A stretch of 64,000 nt of DNA from Candidatus Nitrosotalea sinensis (GTDB taxonomy: Archaea; Thermoproteota; Nitrososphaeria; Nitrososphaerales; Nitrosopumilaceae): positions 62,001 through 126,000 of the forward strand of contig NZ_FRFC01000005.1 in assembly GCF_900143675.1 (NCBI RefSeq). The letters run 5' to 3'. The notes under the pieces are model-generated. The model was not told where the DNA came from. It ran no database searches and was given only the letters and a program-made list of their open reading frames with translations. Position numbers and translations under genes: made by a program. Position 1 is the first letter of the stretch. The number at the start of each line of letters is the position of its first letter. Of the stretch, positions 39,897 through 43,122 are shown in pieces.

Positions 39897-40445
39897 CTAT
39901 TCTAAAGGAAATGTAAGTGAAATAGTACTTTCCGTGGTTTTTATCTGAATTTTTTTAACTAACACATCATGTGCAAGTTCAGATACCATCGTCTTGACAT
40001 ACAATGACCATTTGCTTCCAAGGTCGTGTTGTATCGTAAATATGTAAGAGTTCTTTCCTTTTTCTATGTAATGCTGCATGTACGCCACGTTTAGCCAAGA
40101 TCGTAATATTTCAATAAATTCCTCGACACCTTGATCACCCTTTGTGAAAACAAGAATGTTAGTAAAGTCGTCTTTGGCAATCTTCTGTGCTAGATTTACA
40201 ATCTGCTCTTCAGTCATGCGGTCTATGGCATCTTTCACAAATGGCTTTGTCATGGGTAAGAGACCCACTTTTCTTTCATACCTTCCCCACTGCATATGAC
40301 CTGAAAGTACTTTAGAGACAAATGCGTTTAAATTAATCTTTTCAAGATCTGCCTCGTTTTTTAATTCCTCAAGAAGTGATGAGGACAATCTAAAAGTAAC
40401 TGTTTCTGTTTTTTTCTTAGGTTGTTTGTTTTCACCATTTCTCAT
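39897..40445 (-). CDS. Conserved protein with N-terminal ribbon-helix-helix-like segment
   Basis: The product has 182 residues. The N-terminal ETVTFRLSSSLLEELKNEAD resembles an RHH DNA-binding strand and helix, as in CopG-type regulators. The rest (about 65-182) is a separate alpha/beta domain containing YIFTIQHDLGSKWSLYV, of unknown type. It could be a transcriptional regulator with a sensing domain. It is downstream of, and on the same strand as, the MDR oxidoreductase gene (123-nt gap). Confidence 0.75.
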   Translation of the reverse strand: MRNGENKQPKKKTETVTFRLSSSLLEELKNEADLEKINLNAFVSKVLSGHMQWGRYERKVGLLPMTKPFVKDAIDRMTEEQIVNLAQKIAKDDFTNILVFTKGDQGVEEFIEILRSWLNVAYMQHYIEKGKNSYIFTIQHDLGSKWSLYVKTMVSELAHDVLVKKIQIKTTESTISLTFPLE

Positions 40446-40568
40446 CAGAATACCTCCATATCAGACAATTAAAAGGATACCTAGGATGAATTAATCCAAA
40501 TTGATTCATTTCATCGGTATGAAGATTTTCTTTTCTAGTCCTAACCATACTTGCCATGTAGAAAACTT

Positions 40569-41618
40569 TCAAATCTTTTGAGGTGTCAAAAGTATCTTTC
40601 CAAAATGAGTCCCATTTGCCATCATCTCAAGTCCTTTTGCAACTTCACCAAATGGCAAAACAGTATCTATGATAGGTTTTATCTTTCCCTGACTAGTCCA
40701 ATAGATCACTTCATCCAACTCTGCCTTGGTTCCCTGGGTTGAACCCAAAATATTAACACCTTTGAAAAAAAGGTATCGAAGATCTATTGTCGATTCGTAA
40801 CCAGTGGTGGCACCTGTAGATACAAGCGTCCCACCCTTTCGCAATAATCGTACTTCACTTGGAAAATGAGTCTTACCTATATGTTCAATTATTATGTCGA
40901 CTCCGTGTTTTTTAGTAATTTCCCTGACTTTACGTTCCCAGTTTTCCAATCTATGGTTTATGACATGATCCGCCCCCAGTGAATAGCATTTTTCAGATTT
41001 TTCCTTATTGCCTGCGGTTGCAATCACTGTGCAATTGAAGAGTTTGGCAATCTGAATTGATGCGGTTCCAATTCCACTACCACCCCCCATTACAAGAACA
41101 GTCTGCCTTGGTTGAATTTTTGCCCTTGCTACAAGCATGTGCCAGGAAGTCATGCCCACCATTGATATGGCTGCGGCGTCCTTAAACGATAGATTATCAG
41201 GAATTTTCACTAGGTTAGTATCAGGCATATGAGTATACTGTGAAAATCCTCCCCACAAAGGTCCCGTTTGATATCCCCAGACAAGCCTATCATCACAATC
41301 GTATTCTCTTCCAGTATTACACGCATTACAAACTCTACAACTAAGATTTGGATGAATTGCTACCCTCTCGCCTGTCTTGAATTTTGTAACATCTTCACCT
41401 ACCGATACTATAGTACCAGCTGCATCGCTGCCAGATATGTGTGGTAGTGGAACTTTAATCGGATGACCATACATTGCCCACAGATCATCATAATTATATG
41501 CTGAAGACTCTATTCTTACCATGACCTCATTAGGTTTTATTTTTGGCATATCAACATCTTCAATTTTTACAACTCTGGCAGGCTCTCTACCGATCTCTCG
41601 AAATACTGCAGCTTTCAC
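40569..41618 (-). CDS. MDR-family NAD(P)H-dependent oxidoreductase (zinc-binding)
   Basis: The product has 349 residues: a GroES-like domain with structural zinc Cys (CRVCNACNTGREYDC) and a Rossmann domain with VMGGGSGIGTASIQIA. The catalytic-zinc Cys position reads YNYDD, so it is more like quinone or enoyl reductases than alcohol dehydrogenases. Autotrophic Crenarchaeota and Nitrososphaerota need an acryloyl/crotonyl-CoA reductase from this superfamily in the 3-hydroxypropionate/4-hydroxybutyrate cycle; whether this is that enzyme cannot be decided here. Confidence 0.88.
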   Translation of the reverse strand: MKAAVFREIGREPARVVKIEDVDMPKIKPNEVMVRIESSAYNYDDLWAMYGHPIKVPLPHISGSDAAGTIVSVGEDVTKFKTGERVAIHPNLSCRVCNACNTGREYDCDDRLVWGYQTGPLWGGFSQYTHMPDTNLVKIPDNLSFKDAAAISMVGMTSWHMLVARAKIQPRQTVLVMGGGSGIGTASIQIAKLFNCTVIATAGNKEKSEKCYSLGADHVINHRLENWERKVREITKKHGVDIIIEHIGKTHFPSEVRLLRKGGTLVSTGATTGYESTIDLRYLFFKGVNILGSTQGTKAELDEVIYWTSQGKIKPIIDTVLPFGEVAKGLEMMANGTHFGKILLTPQKI

Positions 41619-41719: not shown

Positions 41720-42100
41720 ATGATGAAACAATCCGAAGTATTTTGCACATCAATCAGTTGCATGGATGGTAGAATCCAGCTTCCCATAATACATTGGCTA
41801 AAAGAGAATTATGAAGCATCTTTTGTTGATACCATAACAGAGCCAGGCATAGACAATCTGTTCACTAACACAGATAAAATAAAGGAAATCAAATCCAAGA
41901 CATTAATTTCAGTTAACAAGCATGGCTCAAAATTGATTATAGTATCAGGCCATAATGATTGTGCGGGAAATCCAGTTTCTAAATCAGAACACATTGATCA
42001 GATAAAGCATGCAGTTTCTGTAATAGAATCTTGGAAATTACCAATTAAGACAATAGGAGCTTGGGTAAACCATAATTGGGAGTTAGAAATTCTTGAGTGA
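41720..42100 (+). CDS. Minimal beta-carbonic-anhydrase-like protein
   Basis: From ATG 41720 the product has 126 residues. CMDGR (Cys14, Asp16, Arg18) and SGHNDCAG (His78, Cys81) reproduce the zinc ligands and the Asp-Arg dyad of beta-carbonic anhydrases (CxDxR and HxxC). The usual enzyme has 180-230 residues, so parts are missing, mainly the N-terminal helix arm and C-terminal region. It might hydrate CO2, which would serve bicarbonate-fixing archaea, or bind zinc for another task. It sits 74 nt before tfb on the same strand. Confidence 0.72.
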   Translation: MMKQSEVFCTSISCMDGRIQLPIIHWLKENYEASFVDTITEPGIDNLFTNTDKIKEIKSKTLISVNKHGSKLIIVSGHNDCAGNPVSKSEHIDQIKHAVSVIESWKLPIKTIGAWVNHNWELEILE

Positions 42101-42174: not shown

Positions 42175-43122
42175 ATGCTAGATGAATTATTTAACAAATG
42201 CAAACTGGACTTGTGTAGTAGAGGACCCATAGTAACAGATAAGGACACAGGAGAGATTCTGTGTGCCAGTTGTGGTCAGGTCTTGATAGAAAAAATGACC
42301 AGTATCGAACCAGAGACTCGTTCATTTGGTCTTGAACAATTCAGTGAAAAAAGTAGAACAGGAATAAAATCAAGCCTGGCAATTTATGACATGGGTTTAA
42401 CAACAATAATAGGAATTACAAACAAGGACGCATCTGGTAAAAATCTCTCAGGGCACATGAGAAATACATTTGGGAGGCTACGAGTTTGGGATCAACGAAG
42501 CAAAGCCAAGCCTCGTGACAGAAACATGGCATATGCATTTACGCTTCTTAACGGAATGAAGTCAAAACTTACGCTACCAGACTATGTTATTGAAGATACT
42601 GCATATATTTACAGAAAGGCTCTTGCGACTAAAACAATACGGGGAAGAAGCATAGCATCTATGCTATATACTGCATTATATGTGGCTTGCAGAAATAACA
42701 ATATTCCAAGATCATTACGAGACATAGCCGAGGCTGGAAATCTTGGACGTGGTGATCTTGCTATAACATACAGAATTATGATGAGAAAATTAGATCTGAA
42801 GGTTGAACCCTATGACCCCGCAGAATTTGTTCTTAGAATATGTAATATGATTGGTACAAGTGAAAAGACTCGGAGAATTGCTTCAAATCTAATATTGAAA
42901 GCAGAAGACGCCAAGTTTTCAAGTGGAAAGAATCCCATGTGTCTAGTTGCAGCTGCAGTTTACTTGGCATGTAACATCAGCGGAGAAGATAAAACTCAGG
43001 TAGAAATTGCAAAAGTGTGTGGAATAAGTAACGTCTCTGTAAGAAATGTATGTAGACTCTTTAGGCAAAAACTAGATCCTCTAATTCGTCAAGAACAGGT
43101 AAAAACACACCAGATTCGATGA
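42175..43122 (+). CDS. tfb: Transcription initiation factor TFB
   Basis: The product has 315 residues. An N-terminal zinc ribbon uses Cys9, Cys14, Cys30 and Cys33 (CKLDLC has four residues between Cys, rather than two). A B-reader/linker segment and two cyclin-fold repeats follow (about 115-200 and 205-305), the second with a helix-turn-helix (TQVEIAKVCGISNVSVRNVC) that contacts BRE. TFB bridges TBP and RNA polymerase. Nitrososphaerota carry many TFB paralogues; this may be a specialised one. Confidence 0.95.
   Translation: MLDELFNKCKLDLCSRGPIVTDKDTGEILCASCGQVLIEKMTSIEPETRSFGLEQFSEKSRTGIKSSLAIYDMGLTTIIGITNKDASGKNLSGHMRNTFGRLRVWDQRSKAKPRDRNMAYAFTLLNGMKSKLTLPDYVIEDTAYIYRKALATKTIRGRSIASMLYTALYVACRNNNIPRSLRDIAEAGNLGRGDLAITYRIMMRKLDLKVEPYDPAEFVLRICNMIGTSEKTRRIASNLILKAEDAKFSSGKNPMCLVAAAVYLACNISGEDKTQVEIAKVCGISNVSVRNVCRLFRQKLDPLIRQEQVKTHQIR

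Follow-up and report, generated by a model that had tools for sequence, protein, structure and literature searches.

A 126-residue archaeal protein of the Pro_CA_2 family with a predicted beta-carbonic anhydrase fold is a candidate CO2/bicarbonate enzyme

The window analyzed here, a stretch of 64,000 nucleotides from Candidatus Nitrosotalea sinensis, carries at positions 41720-42100 (+) a gene for a 126-residue protein of the Pfam family Pro_CA_2 (PF20393) whose predicted fold is that of beta-carbonic anhydrases (beta-CAs). We propose, with a probability of roughly 0.6, that this protein acts in the cytoplasm as a zinc enzyme of the beta-CA superfamily and interconverts CO2 and bicarbonate, a reading based on sequence conservation and a structural model. 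The gene is real and ordinary in kind, and its product, which belongs to an already named family, may be an overlooked CO2/bicarbonate enzyme.

The open reading frame starts with ATG, its codons occupy positions 41720-42097, and the stop codon extends to 42100. An upstream TTG is an alternative start that would yield a protein of 129 residues. Inspection of the N-terminus of the protein revealed no hydrophobic signal stretch. In a Pfam search, the protein matched PF20393, described as "Putative carbonic anhydrase", with an E-value of 1.9e-47 and 161 bits across profile positions 3-123 of 125. This is the only family that exceeds its cut-off (30 bits for PF20393), and the match runs along the whole model, although the function given in the family's label is itself putative. 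The canonical family, PF00484 (Pro_CA), matches residues 11-105 to profile positions 3-87 of 156 with 21 bits, below its cut-off of 25.7 bits, and the protein is thus not assigned to it. An NCBIfam search with the protein returned no match.

Two motifs contain the residues expected of a beta-CA active site. CMDGR (41759-41773, +) includes C14 (41759-41761), a putative zinc ligand, and the Asp-Arg dyad of D16 (41765-41767) and R18 (41771-41773), and HNDC (41951-41962, +) includes two further putative ligands, H78 (41951-41953) and C81 (41960-41962). A sequence search of solved structures found no member of PF20393 (best E-value 0.89; in a second search 0.2, to an unrelated nucleotidyltransferase). 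In weak alignments to the solved structures 3las and 1ddz, the catalytic residues coincide: CMDGR aligns with CMDSR of 3las, and HNDC with HTDC of 3las and HYGC of 1ddz. Both motifs are invariant in all 30 rows of alignment A1, which comprises the window protein and 29 relatives that are 38-71% identical to it, and in all rows of a 50-row set that excludes near-duplicates as well as the bacterial outliers L065 and L066. The preliminary description of a 126-residue reading frame with all zinc ligands and an Asp-Arg dyad is therefore borne out.

The structure predicted by AlphaFold2 from alignment A1, a monomer model, has a mean pLDDT of 95.2 and a pTM of 0.88. It contains strands at residues 8-13, 35-40, 70-78, 110-116 and 122-125, and helices at residues 17-31, 44-49, 51-68 and 88-103. 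The 50 matches that Foldseek listed from the PDB are beta-CAs (best E-value 4.8e-05). With VIA-align, the top match was the archaeal enzyme Cab (1g5c; Z 13.3, rmsd 3.1, 113 aligned residues, 18% identity), and others were a beta-CA of S. mutans (3las; Z 13.0), a CS2 hydrolase (3ten; Z 12.9) and a COS hydrolase (3vrk; Z 11.4). All matches listed by the two programs are beta-CAs or their CS2/COS-hydrolase cousins. Resemblance to beta-CAs, as first noticed in the sequence, is thus supported by the Pfam family, the predicted fold and the invariant catalytic residues.

The protein was also said to be far shorter than known enzymes. This is correct relative to the solved enzymes that were listed, whose chains have 155-229 residues, but the short length is common to the whole of PF20393. 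Since it matches the length of the Pfam model, it is a trait of a family that already has a name, and not an oddity of one gene. Canonical beta-CAs have an N-terminal helical arm, and a helical segment between the helix that follows the HxxC motif and the last strands. In the model, the first strand starts at residue 8, so that the arm is missing, and the last strands come directly after the post-HxxC helix, so that the segment filling the rest of the canonical domain is missing also. The absence of these two parts explains the small size of the protein, and the end of the PF00484 match at position 87 of 156 agrees with loss of the helical segment.

Such a short gene could in principle be a chance reading frame, or the decaying remnant of a longer CA gene, and in-frame stop codons do occur in two relatives (in G219 and G357). 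Nevertheless, we consider this explanation extremely improbable. The match spans all of the 125-position family model, and members have similar lengths across genera and in bacteria. Purifying selection on Pro_CA_2 genes is apparent from dN/dS ratios that range from 0.021 to 0.226 among 11 pairs of close relatives; the ratio is 0.100 for the window gene and its relative in locus L006, and dS is saturated in two further pairs that include the window gene. Conservation rules this explanation out.

Conservation within the family extends beyond the two motifs. The pattern CxDxR...HxxC is kept in 55 of the 56 distinct PF20393 loci read, where the extraction of loci had itself searched for this pattern, and 30 of the 71 matches in the sample of the window's archaeal family, mostly lower-scoring ones, lie outside these motif counts. 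The lone locus that lacks the motif pair, L023, scores 21 bits and thus falls short of the PF20393 cut-off. A naive calculation of the chance that the five named columns would all be invariant gave 4.8e-5, and was set aside because it ignores the more frequent conservation of Cys and His columns. In the 50-row set, the invariant residues are F8, T10, C14, D16, G17, R18, D37, T40, G43, S64, S70, H78, C81 and W115, and H68 is retained in 49 rows. Residue H68 lies opposite Leu in both canonical alignments (3las and 1ddz), and therefore the pocket or core is partly specific to the family. The family-specific invariant or nearly invariant residues D37, T40, S64, H68, S70 and W115 suggest a pocket unlike that of canonical CAs.

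Some relatives depart from this pattern. Genome G144 has, at 1498-1866 of locus L024, a second, divergent Pro_CA_2 paralogue, in which the positions of H68 and P85 are altered and the zinc ligands are intact. The bacterial proteins of L065 and L066 have 134-147 residues and the sequence CMDFR...HxDCGAY, are weakly over the PF20393 cut-off (57 and 45 bits) and seem to form a distinct group of short CA-like proteins, with the ligands in a different sequence context.

By analogy with canonical beta-CAs, from which the residue roles are taken, C14, H78 and C81 would hold the zinc ion. R18 would orient D16, and D16 would in turn be the hydrogen-bond acceptor for a zinc-bound water molecule or hydroxide, which would attack CO2 to form bicarbonate, or take part in the reverse reaction. 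The enzyme is probably a dimer or larger, as are its relatives, and would serve bicarbonate-using carboxylases. Hydration of CO2 is the reaction of most characterized enzymes with the beta-CA fold, and the preservation of the dyad as well as the three ligands points to catalysis over a mere zinc site. Moreover, carboxylation in this cell is expected to draw on bicarbonate, and the genome encodes a biotin-type carboxyltransferase (PF01039).

Two other functions must be weighed against the proposed CA activity. One is that the protein is a hydrolase of another small substrate, such as COS or CS2, with little ability to hydrate CO2. We regard this as unlikely, although CS2 and COS hydrolases match the fold almost as well as CAs do (Z 12.9 and 11.4), which counts against the CA reading. 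The hydrolase reading is also favored by invariant residues that are specific to the family and lie outside the zinc site, and by the lack of a consistent carbon-fixation neighborhood. However, the fold match does not discriminate between the two activities, the COS and CS2 hydrolases are much longer, and no genes for sulfur compounds were recognized adjoining Pro_CA_2 in the loci whose reading frames were read. Similarly improbable, in our assessment, is a noncatalytic zinc- or bicarbonate-binding protein derived from a beta-CA, such as a sensor or a protein for metal handling. The parts lost from the window protein, the N-terminal arm and the helical segment, contribute to oligomer formation in canonical enzymes, and in genera g7 and g3 the gene is flanked by a DNA glycosylase gene on one side and, on the other, by a gene for an unassigned membrane protein and then a ferritin gene. 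Against this stands the Asp-Arg dyad, which serves catalysis rather than zinc binding: it is invariant in the 50 rows, and a structural zinc site would not need it.

We compared gene neighborhoods in 20 fetched regions, minus two (L076 and L081) in which an ATG-only gene call had missed the CA gene. Among the regions compared, no partner gene is common to all archaeal loci, and the archaeal loci have no conserved carbon-metabolism neighbors, which weighs against the CA reading, as do the family-specific residues. A tfb (TFIIB-like) gene (42175-43122, +) is indeed a neighbor, as the preliminary description pointed out, and begins 75 bp downstream of the CA stop codon, but this proximity carries no meaning. 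A TFB-like gene is near one of 54 other loci (L028, with 43% identity), and linkage to tfb is thus ruled out as a functional clue.

On the other side of the gene are a divergent zinc-type medium-chain dehydrogenase gene (40569-41618, -), which recurs near the CA gene in two genera (g1 and g2), and a gene for a 182-residue protein (39897-40445, -) with a weak CopG-like N-terminus (25 bits, under the 28-bit cut-off), which recurs in three (g1, g2 and g4). In relatives, the CopG-like gene and the dehydrogenase gene of this segment (window positions 39897-41618), the latter 54-57% identical, recur next to Pro_CA_2 in as many as three genera and in changed order. The order is CopG-like gene, dehydrogenase, a second, tandem dehydrogenase and CA in G229; CopG-like gene, CA and then a dehydrogenase on the opposite strand in the g2 genomes G138, G053 and G254; and CopG-like gene and CA in G248 (g4). 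A different arrangement, in which a 3-methyladenine glycosylase gene is followed by the CA, membrane-protein and ferritin genes, is found in G102 and G150 (g7) and G226 (g3). This arrangement, seen at 6494-9294 of L077 and also in L078 and L086, includes a membrane protein of approximately 430-470 codons. A Pfam search with the G102 copy of that protein gave no match; we take it to resemble Nramp-like transporters. Elsewhere in the window, a 545-residue reading frame (464-2101) contains a long collagen-like region of Gly-X-Y repeats.

Members of Pro_CA_2 are patchily distributed. In a sample of the phylum, 22 of 200 genomes match, 21 of them over the cut-off. Within the window's archaeal family, whose gene content agrees with its being one of ammonia-oxidising archaea, matches were found in 69 of 200 genomes, in 61 of 119 genomes of good quality and in 13 of 22 genera. 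Presence in the family is thus patchy, which counts against the CA reading, and the gene is also found in bacteria. In the window's own genus, exactly three sampled genomes match (its own, G229 and G247), and at least 20 do not. Nine of 198 bacterial genomes match, in the phylum of a Desulfohalobiaceae metagenome-assembled genome that was reached from locus L025. In that bacterial locus, the CA gene is upstream of a ferredoxin-like gene, and of genes whose sequences were read as those of a 2-oxoacid:ferredoxin oxidoreductase. No relative was found in IMG/VR (searched with A1 patterns), in phage records or in PLSDB.

The gene tree places the window gene with those of g2 and g4 (support 99/96), and the two other g1 copies elsewhere. 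By the ProRS marker, the window's genome is 82-88% identical to those two g1 genomes, versus 70-73% to the g2 and g4 genomes. An AU test did not reject a single clade of the three g1 genes (p = 0.065). These data are no more than suggestive of horizontal transfer of the window gene, and the recurring CopG-like and dehydrogenase neighbors argue for an old shared locus.

The window's genome has a single Pro_CA_2 gene and no PF00484 match. In three of its reading frames, of 179, 281 and 357 residues, there are hexapeptide matches; those of 179 and 281 residues were judged from their sequences and neighbors to be sugar acyltransferases. Among the 200 genomes of the family, none has a PF00484 match over the cut-off, and three weak matches fall inside Pro_CA_2 genes. 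Therefore, no beta-CA-like gene other than Pro_CA_2 was found in this sample. According to passages of PMC10880623, CA genes are few in archaea, and parts of PMC5767755 and PMC4836417 describe CA in other ammonia oxidizers, of the gamma class according to the former.

A link to bicarbonate fixation had been proposed from the sequence. It is plausible, given the carboxyltransferase, but unspecific, because the gene is patchy, also bacterial and often accompanied by SbtA. According to PMC10880623, organisms of this cycle have either SbtA or a cytoplasmic CA, except that Nitrosopelagicus brevis has both. No SbtA was found in the window's genome. Among the 200 genomes of the family, 42 have both Pro_CA_2 and SbtA, 27 Pro_CA_2 alone, 41 SbtA alone and 90 neither. 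The corresponding numbers for the 119 good genomes are 39, 22, 24 and 34 (odds ratio 2.5, p = 0.017, with no correction for relatedness). Mutual exclusion is thus not seen, and the one-or-the-other pattern in section 12 of PMC10880623 does not extend to the window's family; co-occurrence, as the opposite of that pattern, counts against the CA reading. Given this frequent co-occurrence and the occurrence in bacteria, Pro_CA_2 is not tied to one pathway.

We found no paper containing the string PF20393 in the searchable text of an open-access library, where occurrences of "proca2" mostly concern, by their titles, a lanthipeptide precursor. The passages retrieved from PMC7554672, PMC8287830 and PMC10432482 say nothing on PF20393, and the open-access literature searched yielded no assay of any member. 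The methods passages of a large CA survey of 2026 (PMC13098186) indicate that beta-CAs were collected by using COG0288 and pf00484, not PF20393, which makes the present finding useful; COG0288 may or may not take in some Pro_CA_2 proteins. Should its members prove active, Pro_CA_2 would provide a cytoplasmic CA for genomes without a PF00484 match over the cut-off, and would indicate how small a part of the beta-CA fold suffices for catalysis. It is possible, although somewhat short of an even chance, that roughly half of the window's family (taken as Nitrosopumilaceae) has as its cytoplasmic CA a functional enzyme of approximately 125 residues, far below the size of solved beta-type enzymes, which PF00484-based surveys would miss.

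In comparison with known systems, the window protein is an ordinary member of Pro_CA_2, which it matches over the full length and from which nothing distinguishes it. With canonical beta-CAs (PF00484; Cab 1g5c, Rv1284 1ylk and S. mutans 3las), it shares the predicted fold (Z 12.9-13.3), the Cys/His/Cys ligands and the Asp-Arg dyad, whereas those enzymes have chains of 163-169 residues and the N-terminal helical arm that its model lacks. The CS2 hydrolase 3ten and the COS hydrolase 3vrk/3vqj have the same fold as that predicted here, but chains of 201-213 residues. Gamma-class CAs have a fold unrelated to that of beta-CAs. The extracellular gamma-class CA of some ammonia-oxidising archaea, as described in part of PMC5767755, shares with the window protein a proposed role in inorganic carbon supply, but carries a signal peptide, whereas none is seen in the window protein.
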